From positions 1,240,001 through 1,304,000 of the forward strand of contig OX621163.1 of NCBI GenBank assembly GCA_951640195.1: 64,000 nt of DNA. Reading direction: 5' to 3'. The stretch comes from Porpolomopsis calyptriformis (lineage: Eukaryota > Basidiomycota > Agaricomycetes > Agaricales > Hygrophoraceae). The number at the start of each line of letters is the position of its first letter. The first letter of the stretch is position 1. The translations under genes were made by a program, and so were the position numbers. Shown piece by piece: positions 42,142-64,000 of the stretch. Below the pieces are notes generated by a model. The model searched no databases. It worked only from the letters and a program-made list of their open reading frames with translations, and had not been told where the DNA came from.

Positions 42142-42870
<729 letters not shown>

Positions 42871-53644: not shown

Positions 53645-56177
53645 TTACAAGTCCTCGATCGCAATGCTATCGAGTGGTTCGCTAGCTAGCGAACGTTCCA
53701 TCTCTCTAAGTCGTGAAGTTGATATGTCGAGGAATCGTTCAGGAATTGCGATCGATCTTCGAGCGAAGTATGGGATGACTCTAAACGCAGCGATCGGGCG
53801 ATGTAAGATGGATCCGTCGAGCTCTGCGACGATATAAGCTTTTCCTAGGTTTCAGGATATCACGACTAGGGGTCCTAGGTATCGCAGACGCATCTTCCGA
53901 TTGAGAGACTTCTCGATTTTCGTGTTCTGAATGAGTACGAGATCGCCAGTCTTGAAATCATAGTCGCGAATGGTCTTCTCGTGTTTCTTCTCGAATCGAA
54001 CGGCGGATTGTAGGCGAGCAGCGAGAACCTTCGATCGAAGTTGCTCTAAGTCAGCGTCTTGTTTTTGTAGGGCGATCGCGCGTTGCGATATTAGATCAGT
54101 CGTCGAGAGAACTGAATCTGGAGCGGGAAGGAGATATGTCGCTTCGGAGATATCTAGAGGAAGCAATGGCTGAGATCCAGTGACGGCGAAGTAGGGTGAG
54201 CATCCCAATCGCTTTTGGGTAGTGACGCGCTCAGCCCAGAATACGGAGTAGGCTCCGATCGGCCATTGCGTCTGATCGCCATCGATGGCTTTGAATAGCG
54301 ATTGTCGCACGTCGAAGTGAGATCATTCGACTATTCCATTTGCGCGAGAGTTGTATCCGCTGATGCGAATGTGGTTGATTTGATAGCGCTTGGCGAGTGT
54401 TAAGAATTGCACTGGGAACGTGCGCATCTTGGCAACGGCTCAGACCACTGAGCCAAAACGTCGCAGAACTGGACTTACCCAGTTCGGTTGTTCCCAGTAT
54501 ATATACCATATTACACGTGACCGGCTAGAATCTGCTCGACGTTCATGAGAGACGGCCTCAGCGCGCTCGATCTCATGTCTCGAATTTCAGATCCGTGACA
54601 GCGAGGTGATCTATGGCTCCTAGGAAGGCTGTTCCATTGTCCGTGACGATTTCTCGAAGAGAGCCCCATCGACAAATTATATCCTCGAAGATCCATTCGC
54701 CAATCGATTTCGCTGTTTCCGAACGAAGCATTCGAAATTCGGGATAGTGGGTGAGGGAGCATCGCCCTTGAACGATATATCGAAATGGACCGGATCGGAT
54801 CGGGGCATGTGCATCGTGTCGACGTAGATTTTGGCGAATAGGGGAGCTGGCGTGGAGACGGTCGGAGGAATGAGGGCTTGCGTGGTTTGGCGAACCTGAC
54901 AGGTATGACATGTCCGAACGAACCAGACTATGTCGGGGGCCATATGGGGCCACCAGAAGTGTTCGGAAACGATCGATCGGGTAGTGAAGATAGCCTTGTG
55001 GCCTGTTCGATCGTGAAGTTCTGTCATGATCGCTAATCGGCGATCTGGATCAATGACTAATTTATGAGCTCCTTGTCTATCCTTTCGCCATAGTCGGTGG
55101 TTGTCGATAAAGAACTCTTCGCAGTATCGTATAAAACTCGCGTAGTCACTGTCAGACATGTTGCTTGGTCGTTCAAGATCTGAAAGCCATTTTCGAATGA
55201 GGAGAAGTCGTCGATCGTCTTGCTGAGCTGCTTCCGATTGCGGAACGATGTTGTAAGAATCGGTACGTTGGTGGATAGGGTCCTCCTCCTCCTCACTGAA
55301 ATGTTTACTCTGCAAGTAAACTGAGGTGGGCATTCGGAGGGTTTTCGTTTGGGGCGCGGGCGAATCGTTGATATGGTGCATTAGTCTGTGGACGCGATCG
55401 ATCCAATCATCGAAGTCTTTATCAATTGGTTCTTCGTCGTCTTGGTCATCGGGCTGTCGGGGGCGTCGAGAGAGACCGTCGGGACCGTGGTTCGAACCGG
55501 CAACGTGTACCAAGGTAAAATGGAACGTTAGGATCGCTACGATCCATCTGTTAATACTAGCTTGCGGCGCGATGTCTGGGTTCGCTAGCATTCCCTTGAT
55601 ATAGCGGGCGTCGACTTCTATAATGAGGTTCCACACGCTGATGAGGTAGAGTCGGAGCGATCGCAAGGCTCGATAGAGACCGTAGATTTCGAGTTTCGGC
55701 TGAGAGAACCGTCTTTCTCGATCGTTCAATGTGATCGAACCGAATCGATTATAGTACCGTTTCTTCGGATCGTCGGGATCGCATTGGCACAAGTGAAAGC
55801 TAACCGCAATATGTGATGTGTCGACGGCGAGTATGATGGGAGCGTCAGAAGTATAATCGAGAACTCGTAGAGCGGGCGATTCTAGAAGAGCTTGTTTTAA
55901 GTCCTCTTGAGCGGCGAGTTGATCAGGACCAAATTCGAAGGGCATATCTTTCCTAGTGAGCTTGACTAGGTGGTTTGCTCGATGCGCGAAGTTGCGAATG
56001 AAAATCCGAACGACGCCAATAGTGCCAAGGAAGGCTCGAACTTCGGAGAGGTCTTTACAGGGACCCCAATTTCGGATCGCTGAGACATGCGATTCATCAG
56101 GTAGTCGTCCTAAGTGAGTACATCGGTGTCCGAGAACGGTGGTTTCTTCTGCGCACAAGAACGATTTATAGCCTGAC
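53645..56177 (-). pseudogene. Old Gypsy pol, RNase H to integrase part
   Basis: Read from 56177 downwards: AEETTVLGHRCTHLGRLPDE, VRAFLGTIGVVRIFIRNFAH, RKDMPFEFGPDQLAAQEDLK, the RNase H-like APIILAVDTSHIAV and RERRFSQPKLEIYGLYRAL, GSNHGPDGLSRR, then integrase with HFWWPHMAPDIVWFVRTCHT, CQVRQ and EIVTDNGTAF. A frameshift lies near 54,750-54,790. After the solo-LTR insertion the frame resumes at KRYQINHIRISGYNSRANGI. In-frame TGA codons occur at 54325-54323 and 53854-53852, and the frame ends with TAA at 53647-53645. Its 5' half continues at 62864 after the nested chromovirus. Confidence 0.85.
54398..54600 (-). mobile_element. 203-bp solo-LTR-like insertion in integrase
   Basis: Flanked by the 5-bp direct repeat GCGAG (54393-54397 and 54601-54605). 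Read on the minus strand it starts TGTCACGG and ends TTAACA, with a TATA-like GGTATATATAC. Inside it is a 9-bp inverted repeat (54411-54419 with 54490-54498) and a GGCTCA..TGAGCC stem (54437-54454). Removing it and one repeat restores the expected integrase spacing. It has no ORF. Confidence 0.75.
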
Positions 56178-56547
56178 TGTCACGGACATCTTTTTTCCTT
56201 TTTCTCTTAGTCATACTTGATTAGTCTCTGTTCCGTCTATCCTTCCGTTTTACCATTCTATACATAGAGACTGATCACATGTACCTTCCTTCTGACTCTT
56301 CACGAGTCACATTCCGTTTCCGATATTCCTTTTGTGACTCTTCACTAGTCACATTCCGGATTCCGCTTTGTAATCGTACATACGACTGACTCATGGCGAT
56401 TCAGGTAGTTAGTATATAAAGCCTGATTTCTAGTCAGTAGGTTAAGTTCGATTCCTAGTTAGCTCCCCCACTCTTTAGTCGAATTCCATTTCCTCATCAG
56501 CCCCTCCAACGCGAGAAGTAAAACCCTTCGACTACCGAATCATAACA
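56178..56547 (+). repeat. 5' LTR of the chromovirus
   Basis: Starts TGTCACGGACATC and ends ACCGAATCATAACA. U3 holds two copies of a 24-bp motif with TGACTC and AGTCAC arms (56293-56316 and 56335-56358), resembling bZIP sites. TATATAAA is at 56413-56420, placing the transcript start near 56444, so R/U5 spans about the last 100 bp. Confidence 0.97.
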
Positions 56548-56548
56548 A

Positions 56549-56559
56549 GAATCGAACTT
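56549..56559 (+). other. Self-priming primer-binding site
   Basis: GAATCGAACTT, one base past the LTR end, is the exact complement of AAGTTCGATTC at 56444-56454, which lies 31 bp after the TATA box where the RNA should begin. There is no TGG typical of a tRNA 3'-end primer site. This is the Tf1/sushi arrangement in which the first 11 nt of the transcript prime reverse transcription. Confidence 0.75.
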
Positions 56560-56722
56560 CCTTCTTGCGCATCAAACCACTTCCACTCTGGATCCTGCCG
56601 AAGACTTAACAAGGTCAATCTTCTCATCCGCAGATTCAGATACTCCCTTTCAACCAATAGTATTCCAAACCCCCGCACAATCCATCATCCCCCTTTCCCC
56701 CTCATCATCATCACTGACATCA

Positions 56723-58150
56723 ATGTCTCAACAAGAGTACGAAGCTGATCAATCCGTTCCCGCACCAGGACCCAGTAACATCCCCCCTACCATTCAAGAA
56801 GAAGAAGAAGAAGACGTCGTCCCATTTAACATGGAACAAGAGCTCAGAGATTTAAGAGCACAAATCGACCAGTTCCGCGGTTGGTACTACAACGAAGTCG
56901 ACGTCAATGATGAGCTCCGAAAGGAGCTGAAAGCTCTCAAAGAAAGTCGACACGAAGAATCTGAACCAACCACCCCTCCCCCACGACGACGATCTGTACT
57001 TCGGGGACCTGGACTTTCCCCCTCGAATCCTTTCGTTTACCCCACAAGAAGAACCCAATCCGTCCAACTTACATCCCAACCAACCTTTCCCACTCAACTA
57101 CCCACCCAGACGACTGCTCCCCCCACACTTCCAGCCCCCACCAAAATCAAAATCGCCGATCCAACCGAGTATGATGGAACCTCCGAGAAGCTTGAAGACT
57201 TCATTCATCAATGTCGACTCAACTTTGTGATCAAGGACTACAACGATAAACAGAAGATCATCTATATGCTCTCCTACCTCGGTGACGGCAATCCACGGGC
57301 CTGGGGACGACTGTTCACAGAAGGAGTTGACAGGACGAGGAATTTCGTATGGGACTACGCAACATTTTTGGACGATTTTAGGGAAGCTTTCGGAAGGATC
57401 AACCCAGCGGCGAAGGCGCGGATCGAGCTAGAGAAAGTGAAGATGACAGGAACGATAGAAGACTACAACCTTCGGTTCATGCAACACGCAGCAAGAACTG
57501 AGTACAACGAGACCGCTCTACTTCGGTTTTACAAAGCCGGACTCCCCCAGCCGATCCGAACGCGGATCTACTCGATGGACAATATGCCGTCGACTTTGCT
57601 GGACTGGACGACGAAAGCGGCCCAGTTCGAGGAACAGTACCAGGAACAACGAGCCGAACAAGCATTGTGGTCAAGTCGAGATCAAAAAGGAAAGAAGTCT
57701 GAAACCAAATCGAGTCCACGAGGAAACCCTTCCCGCTCCATCACTACCACCACCACTTCATCCCCGATTAAACAAGAATCGAGAGAAGCCTCTCTCAAGA
57801 CAGCGAAACGAGACAACTCCTCCATCACTTGCTACAATTGTGGCAAAAAAGGACACTATGCCAACGAATGTCGAAGTCCACGTGCTGAAGACGTTCCGGC
57901 ACGTCAAGAATCCTCAAACTCTACTCGAGGAAAAGGAGGAAATCGCGGTCGAGGCAAAGGACGGAATGTCCGAATGATCAATCGGGTCGATACAGAAGAA
58001 TTGGAAGCGCGGATAGAGGAGGTACCAGAGGACGACGAAAAGGAAAAAAGGATGGCAAAGGACGACTTGAAGGATATGGGAATCGCAAATTGGAACAAGG
58101 AGAGATGGGCTGCGCTAGCTCGAGCGTTAAAAGAGCAAAAGGATTTTTAG
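56723..58150 (+). CDS. gag: Chromovirus Gag
   Basis: 475 residues. A coiled coil follows the acidic N-terminus (MEQELRDLRAQIDQFRGWYY, then NDELRKELKALKESRHE). The central capsid-like region runs from about residue 145 to 310 (ADPTEYDGTSEKLEDFIHQC, WDYATFLDDFREAFG, ALLRFYKAGLPQPIRTRIYS). One zinc knuckle, C-x2-C-x4-H-x4-C, is at about residues 370-383 (CYNCGKKGHYANEC), followed by an RG-rich basic stretch. It packages the genomic RNA into virus-like particles. The TAG at 58148-58150 overlaps the pol frame; a run of five T directly before it could allow a -1 shift. Confidence 0.95.
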   Translation: MSQQEYEADQSVPAPGPSNIPPTIQEEEEEDVVPFNMEQELRDLRAQIDQFRGWYYNEVDVNDELRKELKALKESRHEESEPTTPPPRRRSVLRGPGLSPSNPFVYPTRRTQSVQLTSQPTFPTQLPTQTTAPPTLPAPTKIKIADPTEYDGTSEKLEDFIHQCRLNFVIKDYNDKQKIIYMLSYLGDGNPRAWGRLFTEGVDRTRNFVWDYATFLDDFREAFGRINPAAKARIELEKVKMTGTIEDYNLRFMQHAARTEYNETALLRFYKAGLPQPIRTRIYSMDNMPSTLLDWTTKAAQFEEQYQEQRAEQALWSSRDQKGKKSETKSSPRGNPSRSITTTTTSSPIKQESREASLKTAKRDNSSITCYNCGKKGHYANECRSPRAEDVPARQESSNSTRGKGGNRGRGKGRNVRMINRVDTEELEARIEEVPEDDEKEKRMAKDDLKDMGIANWNKERWAALARALKEQKDF

Positions 58151-61100
58151 TCCGGCCAAGTGCTAAAAGCCCGAGCACTTTGGCTGTGTCCCATGTATGT
58201 GTACCACCATCTATGAAAAGTTTTCGTTTTCTTGGCACACTTGAACAGGGCAAAGGCGCTCTCGAATTCTATCTTTGGATCACGAGTGCCGACAATCTTC
58301 GACGAGTAGCTATCATAGCACTCATTGACTCTGGCGCCTCAGGGAATTTTATTGACGAAGCATTCGTTCGTCAAATGGAGATATCGACCTATCTGTTGGA
58401 TGAGGTTATACCGGTACGAAACGCTGATGGTTCCGAGAACCGAGGAGGTCCCATCACGCACGATACAGACCTGTTTATTGAGGCACCAGATCTATCCTTT
58501 CGAGAACGAATCCGGTTGGAGGTCACCAACTTAGGAAAAAAGCAACAGGTCATCCTCGGCTTCCCATGGCTCTTGCGACACAACCCCACCATCAATTGGA
58601 CAAAAGGCACCTTAACCTTTGCGTCTGGTGACACGCTGTTCAGTAGTATGCGAGTCGGAGTGTTGCCCCCACAGGAAGAACTCTACGTCTTCGATTCGAG
58701 TCTGAAACATGACTCCTTTATCCATTTGGTCGGAGTTGACCACTCCCGACCAGTTTCCATCGAGGAGGATATCAAATCCTTTATTCCCAGTCGTTATCAC
58801 AATTTCTGGCGTGTTTTTCATACCGCAGAATTCGACAAACTTCCTCCTCGACGTCCTTTTGATCATGCGATCAACCTCTACCCGAACACCAAGTTTCAAG
58901 TCGGAAAACTCTACCCCCTTTCCCCCTATGAACAGGTAGAACTTAATAAGTTTATCAACGAAAATCTCAGAACAGGTCGGATACGTCCATCGAAATCACC
59001 GCAAGCTGCTCCCTTCTTCTTTGCGAAAAAGGCTGAAGAAATCAATGCTAAAGGTCTCAGTGCTGGTCTACGTCCCATCCAGGACTATCGCTACATCAAC
59101 TCAAAAACCATTCCTGATCGTTACCCCCTTCCCCTTCTATCGGAAATCCTCCAAGTACCGAAGCTTGCTACTGCTTCACTCTTCACAGTCATCGATATTC
59201 GATGGGGATTTAACAACATACGACTCAAGGAAGGTGACGAATGGAAAGCAGCTTTCATCACCAATCGAGGACTCTTCGAGCCGACCGTTATGTTCTTTGG
59301 ACTACGGAACTCCCCAGCATCTTTCCAACGAATGATAGACGTTCTCTTTAAAGCCGTTCTGGACTCTGGCTGTGTCCACATTTATATTGACGACATTCTC
59401 ATTATGGGCGACACCCCCGAAGAAATTCGCCACTGGACTGACGAAACCCTTAAACTCATGGAGAAGAATCAACTATCCGCCAAACCCGTCAAATGCCAAA
59501 TGGAGAAGACCTCTGTTACATACCTTGGTACAATCATCAGTAAAGGTCAACTCGCTATCAATCCAAAAAAGGTAGACGCCATCATCAATTGGCCGACGCC
59601 CCAAAAGCTGCGAGACCTCCAATCCTTCCTTGGCACCACCAACTTCTGGCGTCGTTACATCAAAAGTTTCTCCTCAGTCGTTCGTCCCCTCTGTGGCCTT
59701 TTGCGGAAAGACCAACCTTGGGATTGGTCTCCCTTGTGTCAAAAAGCCTTTGAGCAACTCAAACATCTCGTCACTACAGCCCCTGTCCTTCTTACCCCGC
59801 GGCCAGACCTTCCTTACCTCTTGGAGACTGATGCCTCAGATTTCGGTATTGGCGCGGTCTTATCTCAGAAGCACGACAACGGTTGGCACCCCGTTGGCTT
59901 TTTCTCAAAGTCTCTACTCCCTGCCGAGTACAACTATCCTACCCATGATCTGGAGATGCTTGCAATCGTCACTTCCCTCAAATATTGGCGTTATCTTTTA
60001 GAGGGCGCAAGGGATACTGTGTTGATAAAGACAGACAATTTAGCGCTCAAGTATTTTATGCAGAACAGATCCCTCTCCAGACGACAAGCACGTTGGATGG
60101 AATTCTTAGGTAGATTCGACTTCAAGATCGAGTATTCCCCTGGAGTCAAAAACAAAGCCGATGGACTCTCCCGCCGACCCGACCACTGTCGTACAGAAAA
60201 AGAAGAATTAGAAGGCCAAGCCCTCCTCCCCCCCGAACGTTTCATCAATGCTATCATTTCCATGTCCGAACCTTCCTTTATGTCAAGACTTCGCTTCCCC
60301 GACTTCAACGAAATCCCAGAGGACATTCGCATCAAGTTATCCGATCCCTCTTCCGGTTACTCCTTCACTGACGGAATTGTGAGAGATGCAGGAGATCGTA
60401 TTGTTGTGCCAGCAGACGTATTGCTACGCACAGAGATAATTCGATTGACCCACTCCCTGCCCCATGGAGGCCATCCCGGAATCGAGAAGACACGTGAGCT
60501 TGTGTTGCGGAACTACACCTGGAGTAGTGCTGCCCCTGACATCCGTGTATTCGTATCATCCTGTCCGACCTGCCAACAAGTCAAGCTCTATCCTTCGAAG
60601 CCTGCAGGTCTCCTGGAACCCATTCCCCCTTCGTCTCGACCTTGGGAAGAAATCACCGCCGATCTAATCGTGGAACTCCCCCAATCATCTGGCTACGATG
60701 CTGTCTTAGTCGTTGTTGACCACTTTACTAAACGCGCTCACTTTGTTCCGACGACATCAAACATTTCTGCAGAAGGAGTCGCAAAACTCTTCAGGGACAA
60801 TGTATGGAAACACCACGGCTGGCCAAAGAAGATCATAACCGATCGAGGAACTCAGTTTGCTTCCAAATTTGCGAAAGCTCTCAACACTCATTTGGGAATC
60901 ATCTCCGGTCTATCCACCGCTTATCATCCCCAAACTGATGGTCAAACGGAACGCACCAATCAAGAACTCGAACAATACCTTCGTTTATATACAAACTTTA
61001 TGCAAGACGATTGGTCCAACTGGCTATCCCCAGCTGAATTCGCTTACAATAACCGACAGCACTCCTCGACGAAACACACTCCCTTTTACCTTGATACTGG

Positions 61101-61710
61101 CCAACATCCCTTCGTCCCATCTGTCCCTGCGGCCCCTACTTCCAACCCCGCAGCAGATACCTTCCACGATCATCTCACAGAAGCCCGTGAAGAAGCCACA
61201 AAAGCTCTAGAAACAGCGGCCGAAACCATGAAACGCTTCGCAGATCGTAAACGGAAAGATACCCAACTCCAAATAGGTCAATTTGTTTATCTTGATACTC
61301 GTAACTTAAAAACAGGTCGTCCAACCCTCAAACTTGATGTCCGACGCACTGGACCGTTCAAAGTTCTAGAGAAAATCGGAAAAATCTCTTATCGCCTGGC
61401 CCTCCCCTTATCATGGAAAATACACGACGTCTTTCACGTTTCACTCCTGAGACCCGCTAACATTAACTCCGATCTCCACCCAGAGGAAGTAGATGATAAT
61501 CTCCGTCCACCTCCAGATGTCATTCAAGAGAAAGAAGAATATGAGGTCGAACAAATTCTCCAACATCACGGGTCCACCCGACGTCGTACGTATTTGGTCA
61601 AATGGGTCGGCTATCCCATTGAAGAAGCAACCTGGGAACCGAAGAAGAACCTCCTCCATGCGAAAGAACGAATTCTAGAATACGAACAATCAATTCAAAC
61701 GGCGACCTGA
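58090..61710 (+). CDS. pol: Chromovirus Pol with C-terminal chromodomain
   Basis: Open for 1,206 codons in the -1 frame relative to gag, overlapping it by 61 nt; translation probably enters by frameshift, not at the ATG. Domains by residue: aspartic protease about 75-160 (LIDSGASGNFID), reverse transcriptase about 290-480 (FTVIDIRWGFNNIRL, YIDDILI near 430), RNase H about 570-690 (LLETDASDFGIGAVL, DLEMLAIV, IKTDN), integrase about 770-1050 (HGGHPG...CPTCQQVK zinc site, ADLIVE, ITDRGTQF, QTERTNQE as D, D, E), GPF module (RRTGPFKVLEKIGKISYRLA), and a chromodomain at about 1150-1200 (EVEQILQHH, TYLVKWVGYPIEEATWEP). The aromatic Trp/Tyr residues expected for methyl-lysine binding are present. All catalytic residues are intact. 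Confidence 0.97.
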   Translation: MEQGEMGCASSSVKRAKGFLVRPSAKSPSTLAVSHVCVPPSMKSFRFLGTLEQGKGALEFYLWITSADNLRRVAIIALIDSGASGNFIDEAFVRQMEISTYLLDEVIPVRNADGSENRGGPITHDTDLFIEAPDLSFRERIRLEVTNLGKKQQVILGFPWLLRHNPTINWTKGTLTFASGDTLFSSMRVGVLPPQEELYVFDSSLKHDSFIHLVGVDHSRPVSIEEDIKSFIPSRYHNFWRVFHTAEFDKLPPRRPFDHAINLYPNTKFQVGKLYPLSPYEQVELNKFINENLRTGRIRPSKSPQAAPFFFAKKAEEINAKGLSAGLRPIQDYRYINSKTIPDRYPLPLLSEILQVPKLATASLFTVIDIRWGFNNIRLKEGDEWKAAFITNRGLFEPTVMFFGLRNSPASFQRMIDVLFKAVLDSGCVHIYIDDILIMGDTPEEIRHWTDETLKLMEKNQLSAKPVKCQMEKTSVTYLGTIISKGQLAINPKKVDAIINWPTPQKLRDLQSFLGTTNFWRRYIKSFSSVVRPLCGLLRKDQPWDWSPLCQKAFEQLKHLVTTAPVLLTPRPDLPYLLETDASDFGIGAVLSQKHDNGWHPVGFFSKSLLPAEYNYPTHDLEMLAIVTSLKYWRYLLEGARDTVLIKTDNLALKYFMQNRSLSRRQARWMEFLGRFDFKIEYSPGVKNKADGLSRRPDHCRTEKEELEGQALLPPERFINAIISMSEPSFMSRLRFPDFNEIPEDIRIKLSDPSSGYSFTDGIVRDAGDRIVVPADVLLRTEIIRLTHSLPHGGHPGIEKTRELVLRNYTWSSAAPDIRVFVSSCPTCQQVKLYPSKPAGLLEPIPPSSRPWEEITADLIVELPQSSGYDAVLVVVDHFTKRAHFVPTTSNISAEGVAKLFRDNVWKHHGWPKKIITDRGTQFASKFAKALNTHLGIISGLSTAYHPQTDGQTERTNQELEQYLRLYTNFMQDDWSNWLSPAEFAYNNRQHSSTKHTPFYLDTGQHPFVPSVPAAPTSNPAADTFHDHLTEAREEATKALETAAETMKRFADRKRKDTQLQIGQFVYLDTRNLKTGRPTLKLDVRRTGPFKVLEKIGKISYRLALPLSWKIHDVFHVSLLRPANINSDLHPEEVDDNLRPPPDVIQEKEEYEVEQILQHHGSTRRRTYLVKWVGYPIEEATWEPKKNLLHAKERILEYEQSIQTAT

Positions 61711-61834
61711 TCACTCTTTCACGGTATCAACTCCCCTCGTTTATATTTTCACTTTTATCACCTCTTCCAAACTCCGACTCTTCCTTATAATCTCTTTCGT
61801 CTCCATCTTTCATTCTCAAGAAATCGATCTCGCT

Positions 61835-62413
61835 ATGCCCGCCGAACGCTCGCATCAAACTGCCCGCAAGTCTACTGGTGGTCGTCCACCCCGCACTCCT
61901 CGCATGTCCACTGGAGGGCAACCCCCTCGTCGCGCTCCCCCTCCGCTCGCTTCCACCTCCTCCGCTTACGGTGAAGCCGAGCTCGCCGGACAACTCTGGC
62001 AGCACAACCGTCGCGCACGAAATCGAAACCTTCTCATATGGCCAGAGGAAATCGTCGCTCCACCCATCCCGCCCGAGCAGATCATCGAGTCACTACAGAA
62101 AGATATCGATTACTACAAGAACGAGATTGCAAGACTGAACGAAGAATTGTACAACCAAGGAATGAGTTTGGACGGAAACAGAAGAGGGAGTGAGTACTGG
62201 CGAGAGCAGGCCAAATACTGGGAGGCAAAGTACGAGGAAGTCGCAAAGGTACTTCCCCATCTTGATTCTCCAGTTCCCCCTGTTTTCCCGGGTCCACTCA
62301 TCGTTCCCCCCGGTTCGTCGTCGAACCCCATCACCATCCCCGATGACGACGATATTTCCCCGGTCGACATTATTTCCCTGTCGACCATCGCCTCCAACAA
62401 GGACTCAATCTAG
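61835..62413 (+). CDS. Extra ORF with histone H3 N-tail mimic
   Basis: 192 residues in the position where env or accessory genes lie, 124 bp after pol and 80 bp before the 3' LTR. Residues 8-16 are QTARKSTGG, identical to histone H3 residues 5-13, so Lys12 here corresponds to H3 Lys9. A second weaker unit follows (MSTGGQPPR after KSTGGRPPR). Then come a coiled coil (EQIIESLQKDIDYYKNEIAR, YWREQAKYWEAKYEEVAKV) and a Pro-rich acidic tail (PDDDDISPVDI). No membrane segment or signal peptide. The 100 bp before the ATG are pyrimidine-rich, like a fungal promoter leader. Function unknown; a histone-like ligand for chromodomain or methyltransferase is inferred. Confidence 0.8.
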   Translation: MPAERSHQTARKSTGGRPPRTPRMSTGGQPPRRAPPPLASTSSAYGEAELAGQLWQHNRRARNRNLLIWPEEIVAPPIPPEQIIESLQKDIDYYKNEIARLNEELYNQGMSLDGNRRGSEYWREQAKYWEAKYEEVAKVLPHLDSPVPPVFPGPLIVPPGSSSNPITIPDDDDISPVDIISLSTIASNKDSI

Positions 62414-62457
62414 TCCTTCCCCTCCTCCACACCCTTCAACACTCTCGAAGCCGCCTC

Positions 62458-62476
62458 GAATTTCGGGACGAAATTC
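62458..62476 (+). other. 8-bp stem-loop before the 3' LTR
   Basis: GAATTTCG and CGAAATTC flank a 3-nt loop, 17 bp before the 3' LTR, next to a G/T-rich stretch where a polypurine tract would be expected. It may be part of the plus-strand priming signal. Confidence 0.5.
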
Positions 62477-62493
62477 CTTTTAGTGTGGGTGTA

Positions 62494-62863
62494 TGTCACG
62501 GACATCTTTTTTCCTTTTTCTCTTAGTCATACTTGATTAGTCTCTGTTCCGTCTATCCTTCCGTTTTACCATTCTATACATAGAGACTGATCACATGTAC
62601 CTTCCTTCTGACTCTTCACGAGTCACATTCCGTTTCCGATATTCCTTTTGTGACTCTTCACTAGTCACATTCCGGATTCCGCTTTGTAATCGTACATACG
62701 ACTGACTCATGGCGATTCAGGTAGTTAGTATATAAAGCCTGATTTCTAGTCAGTAGGTTAAGTTCGATTCCTAGTTAGCTCCCCCACTCTTTAGTCGAAT
62801 TCCATTTCCTCATCAGCCCCTCCAACGCGAGAAGTAAAACCCTTCGACTACCGAATCATAACA
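62494..62863 (+). repeat. 3' LTR of the chromovirus
   Basis: 370 bp; compared by eye with 56178-56547, I found no difference. It is followed at once by the CTGAC target duplication. Confidence 0.97.
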
Positions 62864-64000
62864 CTGACATTGTTCCACCACAGTATTTCATTCGCTGAAC
62901 TATTCGATTGAGATTCCCGAAGTGTTCCCATATGAATATCGAATTCCGTCGTTCTCTGGAATCGTTTCGTAGGATCTATTGGGGAGTACGTATCGAGTCG
63001 CGGGACCCTTCACAGGGATATCGTCGATATAAGGGATCGTAAACTCAGGAATCTCCGGTTGGAGGATATAGGTGATGTCGTCGTGAAAAACGGGCACAGA
63101 ATTCATCCATCCCATGGGTAGGGTAACTAGTCGATGAGCCCCATAGGGTGTCTGGAATGTGGTTAAATCGCGAGATGAAGGCGCGATCACTCATTCGTCA
63201 TATCTGACGTAAAGGTCAAACATAGCACTGCAGGATCGACCGCCGAACTGTTCAGCCAAGTGTTCGGGGATTGGCGTTACTCCCGAATGTCGAATCGTGA
63301 CTTGATTGAGTGGTTCGAGACTGTGAACGATTCTAAGTTCCTTCCCTCCTTTCTTTAGAATGGTGAACCATCGCGATCGGTAGGAGGAGTTCGAGGGTTC
63401 GTAGACACCAGCGTCGATTTTTCGCTGGATAACTTTACATACTTCGTGGTAGATCCCTGGGGGAATCGGAATATTCTTTTGTACCCAGGGCGTATGTGGT
63501 ATGACTGGGAGATCGATGGGAGGGAAAAAGTCGGATCTGAAATGTCCTCGTTCGGAGTCGTTCCAGGTGAAGGCGAGATCTTGTTTTCTCATGAAATCGT
63601 GAAGGAGGGCCCTTTCTTGAGGCCAAGAAATCTCCGGGGTGAGCTTTATCAAAAAGCTCCATCCGTTCGATCGTATATCGTTCAGTCGGGGTAAACGTGG
63701 GGGGGTTCGGGTCGAGTGTTGGCATATTCGTGAGTGGATCGCCAAGGATTTTCCTAATGATTCGGAACTTGTCAGGGAGTTCAGCTACTACGGAGCGAAC
63801 TTTCTTCGAGACAGGTTTATATTTCTTTTTCGATGCGAGGAAGGTTGCAATTTCCATTGATCGATCGAGCCGGTTGGAAACGGAAGGTCGATCGCTAGTT
63901 GATCGAGATTTAGAGATAAGGTCGGGGAGGTCACAAGCGGATAAATAAGCATGGGAAACTGTTGAAACTTTATTTGTTGCGCATAGAGGCGCACAGGAAT
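62864..64000 (-). pseudogene. Old Gypsy pol, reverse-transcriptase part (continues off the window)
   Basis: Read from the window end downwards: IATFLASKKKYKPVSKKVRS, FRIIRKILGDPLTNMPTL, a short frame change near 63,700, FAWND-like block (FTWNDSERGHF), IPHTPWVQKNIPIPPGIYHE, YEPSNSSYRSRWFTILKKGG, RIVHSLEPLNQVTIRHSGVT and FDLYVRYDE, then an in-frame TGA at 63193-63191, TLPMGWMNSVPVFHDDITYI and YIDDIPVKGPATRY. A second frame change precedes the junction with the nested chromovirus. YIDD is the RT active site. The protease and gag parts should lie beyond 64,000. Confidence 0.85.

Follow-up and report, generated by a model that had tools for sequence, protein, structure and literature searches.

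We found that the window, by which we mean the whole stretch of 64,000 nucleotides that was analysed, contains a Ty3/Gypsy LTR element of the chromodomain type at 56178-62863 (Table 1). It has the structural features of a chromovirus, namely the LTRs, a gag with capsid and zinc knuckle, the order reverse transcriptase-RNase H-integrase, and a C-terminal chromodomain. The 11-nt site that follows the 5' LTR makes self-priming of the element likely, as in Tf1. On either side of the element, at 54677-56158 and 62900-63857 (-), lies a remnant of another gypsy pol that it interrupts. With the CTGAC target site as the junction the two flanks can be joined, which shows that the element sits inside an old, frame-broken gypsy pol.

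Table 1. Features of the chromodomain element and of its accessory reading frame, in window positions.
Feature	Position	Strand	Details
Target-site duplication CTGAC	left 56173..56177, right 62864-62868	.	5 bp
5' LTR	56178..56547	+	370 nt, identical to 3' LTR
Likely primer-binding site	56549..56559	+	11 nt that can pair with a stretch of the same element's LTR (62760)
gag	56723..58150	+	Ty3 capsid-like domain and CCHC zinc knuckle (Pfam)
pol frame	58090..61710	+	Protease, RT, RNase H, integrase, chromodomain (Pfam)
Pol C-terminal chromodomain	61540..61689	+	Pfam Chromo, E 6.9e-13
Cage residues of chromodomain	Tyr 61540-61542, Trp 61603-61605, Tyr 61612-61614	+	
TTATAA box	61785..61790	+	50 nt upstream of ORF3 ATG
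ORF3	61835..62413	+	192-aa accessory protein, in the interval between pol and 3' LTR
H3-like stretch	61847..61894	+	ORF3 residues 5-20 against H3 2-17, 12/16
QTARKSTGG	61856..61882	+	ORF3 residues 8-16
Second half-repeat RMSTGGQPPRR	61901..61933	+	Met replaces the Lys9 equivalent
Two predicted helices	62072..62263	+	Residues 80-109 and 116-143, coiled-coil-like, with YWREQAKYWEAKY; low-confidence model
3' LTR	62494..62863	+	370 nt

An earlier note on this DNA had described an open reading frame between pol and the 3' LTR, a Pol protein ending in a chromodomain, and an accessory protein that, beyond its histone-like segment, is coiled coil with an acidic tail rather than a captured histone. Each of these descriptions agreed with our results, the last one, in the form of a helical body with an acidic tail, with Pfam and with a low-confidence structure model. 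In ORF3, as we call the additional frame, residues 8-16 read QTARKSTGG and match residues 5-13 of histone H3 at nine of nine positions, with Lys12 corresponding to H3K9. This identity had been noticed before, and we found that the likeness extends further, since residues 5-20 (RSHQTARKSTGGRPPR) share 12 of 16 positions with H3 2-17 (RTKQTARKSTGGKAPR); the position matching H3 Lys14 is Arg. The partial second copy of the repeat was recovered as well, as PRMSTGGQPPR with Met at the Lys9 position. A TTATAA box, located 46-57 nt upstream of the ORF3 ATG in 69 of the 75 extracted copies, is possibly the promoter of ORF3 itself.

Among the 43,103 16-mers in window frames of at least 60 aa, none resembles the H3 tail more closely than RSHQTARKSTGGRPPR. 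A phmmer search against PDB chains returned E values of 0.07 and up, which are weak because the match spans just 16 residues. The second-best window 16-mer (10/16) belongs to a host H3-variant gene at 42163-42870 (-), about 13 kb from the element, whose N tail is itself H3K9-like and which we infer to be CENP-A-like. For ORF3 as a whole, a single-sequence AlphaFold model (mean pLDDT 57.6, weak) predicts helices at residues 45-61, 80-109 and 116-143, no secondary structure in residues 1-44 and a disordered C tail. With E values up to 1 allowed, Pfam returned for ORF3 just a coiled-coil model, below its cut-off (E 0.17). A captured histone H3 gene was rejected, as no histone family appeared in the Pfam matches at E up to 1 and the low-confidence model suggests a helical body with a disordered C tail.

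The earlier note had placed the chromodomain in the same element as ORF3, and Pfam, the matches to solved sequences and the cage residues concur and assign it to the HP1 class. The nearest solved sequences to the Pol chromodomain include Oxpecker, CDYL and HP1/CBX1, and the Y-W-Y cage was found in 58 of the 59 copies read, the remaining copy having a stop at W. Judged by its sequence, this chromodomain is complete and of the HP1 class; its predicted structure is poor (pLDDT 59.1). Group I comprises the retroelement chromodomains that resemble the classical kind, and that of MAGGY binds H3K9me2/3 (PMC3350952). The three cage aromatics that characterise this group are present in the Pol of the family studied here.

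Copies in the genome and selection on the histone-like tail

The chromodomain family that carries the H3 mimic is referred to here as family A. Searching the 33.5-Mb genome with the ORF3 protein gave 128 matches, a number that includes fragments and some low-scoring members of a third family. From the fetched loci 75 ORF3 copies were extracted, and 74 were compared after removal of one fragment without an N terminus. A degenerate DNA pattern for QTARKSTGG occurred at 70 genome sites, comprising three host H3 genes and 67 ORF3 copies, and in this genome-wide pattern search exact coding of the motif was found nowhere outside family A ORF3 and the H3 genes; the reversed pattern, used as a control, had no genome match. 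The exact motif was present in all 15 copies that have an open frame of 1273 codons over the pol C terminus (from 150 matches scored of 823 candidates). At one of these, C1:3497026-3505070, the family A pol end and ORF3 are about 7 kb apart with the chromodomain and ORF3 of another family, family B, between them, and here family B probably inserted into family A. We also observed composite copies (L021 7788-10000 (-) and L016 2923-4989), in which an A-type ORF3 immediately precedes the end of an integrase together with an ORF3 of a second family. In these composites the A-type ORF3 has extra residues near the N terminus and the motif is kept in L021. The pair recurs with a spacing of 1694-1695 nt at C1, C4, C5, C9 and C11.

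Across the 66 gapless copies, the observed/expected ratio of CpG starts at about 1.1 and is as low as 0.23 among old copies, and the amino-acid changes of old ORF3 copies look largely like C>T/G>A decay. This loss of CpG would fit copies that have been methylated and silenced. The 74 copies were compared codon by codon with the window copy as reference, and changes reachable by C>T or G>A alone were counted as decay, a scoring that could mask some real replacements. Of the 666 codons for residues 8-16, 638 still encode the same amino acid, 28 carry changes of the decay type and none carries a change of another type. All nine residues are intact in 57 copies, at least one decay-type change occurs in 17, and T9, K12, S13 and T14 are kept in 74/74. 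Elsewhere in ORF3, changes of other types per 1000 codons amount to 38.5 (residues 2-7), 3.4 (17-20), 60.8 (21-34), 54.9 (35-80), 103.4 (81-140) and 83.0 (141-190). Four of the 182 nine-codon windows, starting at 8, 9, 43 and 44, lack such changes, so that ORF3 has two stretches of this kind, of which the motif is one. Because the copies have a common ancestry these counts are not independent events, and 26 copies are left at <93% nucleotide identity.

Rates of replacing and silent change were estimated from 34 of the 66 gapless copies, namely those with a start Met, no stop and at least 42 CpG, using the 457 pairs more than 5% apart. For residues 8-16 the pN/pS was 0.03, with 2.81 silent vs 0.21 replacing differences per pair. 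The other segments gave 0.09 (residues 1-7), 0.35 (17-34), 0.10 (35-80), 0.09 (81-140) and 0.45 (141-190), and the whole ORF3 gave 0.15. Raw pN sets the motif less apart, since three single-copy G>A-type changes count there: with the motif itself counted, 21 of the 182 windows have a value equal to or below that of the motif. As a pN/pS of 0.03 coincides with plentiful silent change, the constraint sits on the protein, and a DNA- or RNA-level constraint was rejected (motif pS 0.369 vs 0.297 for the ORF). In the one family and one genome from which all the selection evidence comes, the H3K9-tail mimic of ORF3 is under purifying selection at the protein level. The earlier expectation that the motif would be conserved while its flanks diverge is thus upheld within family A, where most neighbouring segments change more.

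In a divergent subfamily (L073, L075 and L076, 77-78% identical), extra residues lie just before the motif and the half-repeat is degraded; QTARKSTGG is kept in two of the three, and the third has one G>A-type change. Codons 24-27 of the half-repeat (ATG TCC ACT GGA) show zero change in the 34 intact copies, unlike the main motif with its silent turnover.

Sister families and insertion sites

Family B is a sister chromodomain family, 60-64% identical to family A over the Pol C terminus, and its own ORF3 has at least 150 matches (150 scored of 295 candidates). The ORF3 of the intact copy L095 starts MPATRSTQSPSPQVAIRRSGRIP; it occupies the same position, shares the MPAxRSxQ start and has a basic, Ser/Pro/Arg-rich tail, and TTATAA is also found 103 nt upstream of it. 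ARKS was absent from both family B ORF3 copies read, the intact L095 and the decayed L063. The ORF3 proteins of families A and B align with a local score of 66 (300 shuffles: mean 34.0, sd 5.4, max 53) and those of family A and the third family with a score of 111 (300 shuffles: mean 35.0, sd 5.9, max 59), while the score of 26 between family B and the third family is not above its 300 shuffles. The H3 mimic is absent from the third-family ORF3 in L016, L021, L082 and L084, and the integrase end before ORF3 has no Pfam chromodomain at E up to 1 in L016 and L021.

A rule that every chromodomain element has the mimic was rejected on the evidence of L095, so the mimic did not prove to be a general property of such elements, nor, with the third family in view, of ORF3. 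Relatives lacking ARKS, which the earlier note had named as evidence against its proposal, do exist between families, in family B, and were not found within family A. Since family B appears to manage without the mimic, the chromodomain does not seem to require it. As far as this genome shows, the mimic either originated in family A or has survived in that family alone.

We compared insertion sites with random places, using 95 places for family A and 150 scored of 295 candidates for family B. The family A list omits five composite copies, the C2:2686974 fragment, second pieces of split copies and weak third-family rows. For family A the median nearest neighbour was at 113 kb vs 126 kb for random places, and 21% lay within 20 kb vs 10.8% at random (random maximum 24.2%). 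For family B the corresponding values were 31 kb vs 78 kb, and 30.7% vs 15.9% (random maximum 26.7%). Family A is therefore at most mildly clustered, and family B is more clustered than random.

The genome collections searched for relatives consisted of prokaryotes and this genome, and the following results are no evidence of the absence of ORF3 elsewhere. None of 196 candidates from the ORF3 protein search reached E 0.001, none of 3512 candidates from a search with an 11-row ORF3 alignment reached E 1, and the viral-contig scans found no ORF3 relatives, three viral contigs being without the motif in frame. Pol relatives (P0001-P0003), with 53-58% identity over residues 1000-1206, came without neighbouring DNA.

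Possible roles and origin of the tail

HP1 reads the QTARKS segment of H3, which is contained in the ORF3 motif. SUV39H2 accurately reads R8, S10, T11 and G12, and T6, A7, G13 and K14 also matter (PMC8303541). All of these H3 residues are kept in ORF3 except K14. The host genome has one Pre-SET match above the Pfam cut-off and six DNA-methylase matches. A chromoshadow search for HP1 in the host genome gave no match, a negative that carries no weight either way.

On balance, we lean towards the view that the ORF3 tail is a selected H3K9-tail mimic, in which Lys12 is likely methylated by the host and held by an H3K9me reader. ORF3 would then be an accessory protein with a flexible N-terminal H3-tail mimic on a helical, probably self-associating body. 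Most likely, Lys12 would be a substrate of the host H3K9 methyltransferase (Suv39/Clr4/Dim-5 type), and the methylated tail could be held by the element's own integrase chromodomain, by host HP1, or by both. As an outcome, ORF3 might be coupled to the integrase, or silencing factors might be diverted. What the data show is the identity in sequence, the purifying selection on the protein motif, its presence beside a complete HP1-class chromodomain and a Pre-SET match in the host; that ORF3 self-associates, is methylated and bound, and thereby affects integration or silencing is what we infer. The sequence data do not tell apart the chromodomain, HP1 and the methyltransferase as partners. The conserved copy suggests that the element uses its ORF3 tail to deal with the host gene-silencing machinery.

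A more specific proposal, which we put forward tentatively and regard as doubtful, is that the element encodes both halves of an H3K9me pair, with a methylatable mimic in ORF3 and a reader in the integrase chromodomain, acting as a switch or in relief of silencing. If this is true, methylated ORF3 may occupy or cross-link the chromodomain and thereby switch between heterochromatin-targeted and free integration. Alternatively, ORF3 may pull HP1 and the methyltransferase off the element's own copies.

It is also conceivable, though unlikely in our judgement, that ORF3 is a decoy which ties up or blocks HP1 or the H3K9 methyltransferase and so relieves silencing of the element. The CpG loss in old copies, which suggests that the host silences this family, speaks for such a decoy; against it, H3 probably far outnumbers a retrotransposon accessory protein. 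In a variant of this idea, the half-repeat with its Met acts like H3K9M and traps the methyltransferase, as H3K9M traps Clr4 in fission yeast (PMC5030085). Met24 is kept in 73/74 copies, but selection acts less strongly on segment 17-34, where the half-repeat lies (pN/pS 0.35). The Arg8 equivalent of the half-repeat is His in 16 of the 34 intact copies, whereas SUV39H1 and SUV39H2 depend on R8 (PMC8303541), and this makes the trap less likely. Nevertheless, Dim-5 is harmed just mildly by R8 loss (PMC2797608), so the half-repeat might still bind a fungal enzyme.

Somewhat less likely still is that the tail imitates H3 for nuclear import or chaperone binding, or binds nucleic acid simply because it is basic, and that Lys9 methylation has no part in it. 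The H3 tail is an importin ligand, the ORF3 tail is basic and N-terminal, and the family B protein has a comparable basic tail after the same start without ARKS. A generic basic tail, however, would not keep Q, T, A, S, T, G and G through silent turnover, and the residue at the Lys14 position, which is important for H3 import, is Arg in ORF3.

We think it very unlikely that the tail is nothing more than a persisting fragment, captured or gene-converted, from an H3 (or CENP-A-like) gene of the host. In the host H3 genes (L089, L090 and L091) an inferred intron (GT...AG) directly follows the KSTGG codons, and in L091 (C2:3412700-3413100) one inferred 25-nt exon covers just QTARKSTGG. In one of the ORF3 types 7/8 codons agree with those of an H3 gene, but six ORF3 types were compared and a match of at least 7/8 arises in 0.85% of random codings; the other five types match 4 to 6 codons at best (three H3 genes each). 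The flanking residues match H3, although by eye no such match is apparent in the flanking codons. Codon usage favours neither capture nor convergence as the origin, and a scrap fails as a full explanation because unselected sequence would not show a pN/pS of 0.03. Chance likeness in a low-complexity basic tail, to which the phmmer E values as expected for a 16-residue match might point, was rejected as exceedingly improbable given nine consecutive identities within a match that ranks first among all window 16-mers, 70 vs 0 reversed-pattern matches genome-wide and selective maintenance of the motif.

Comparison with known histone mimics and chromoviruses

The fungal chromoviruses (MAGGY, and the basidiomycete clades MarY1, Tcn1, Laccy and others) share with the present element the gag, the pol order and the C-terminal chromodomain, and chromovirus chromodomains of group I likewise carry three cage aromatics. 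In the literature passages covered, no H3-tail mimic is reported for an additional ORF of a fungal chromovirus, and among the best matches in the open-access literature searched there was no case of H3-tail mimicry by a retrotransposon.

Among viruses, H3-tail mimicry is described for influenza NS1 (ARSK) and SARS-CoV-2 ORF8 (ARKS). Like ORF3, both are accessory proteins with a short H3-tail copy (PMC10208167), and the mimicry by ORF8 is disputed (PMC10833455). The copy in NS1 and ORF8 spans about four residues, whereas ORF3 has nine in a row and 12/16 overall. In addition, unlike NS1 and ORF8, ORF3 sits in an integrating retroelement with its own HP1-class reader. Cellular H3K9 mimics methylated by G9a/GLP are also described, namely WIZ, LIG1, CDYL and ACINUS (PMC10611923). 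These resemble ORF3 in having an H3K9-like motif in a non-histone protein, but their core motif is about four residues long and they are products of the host rather than of a mobile element.

Reported viral H3-tail mimicry thus rests on short and sometimes disputed motifs, whereas the motif of ORF3 is a long one that dozens of copies carry and that is visibly under purifying selection. Next to family A the genome has the sister family B, whose ORF3 is related but does not have the motif. The relation of chromodomain elements to host H3K9 methylation is an old question, and it becomes directly testable here. Viral mimicry of the H3 tail is known; what is unusual in this element is that the mimic and a domain of the reader class are paired in one element.
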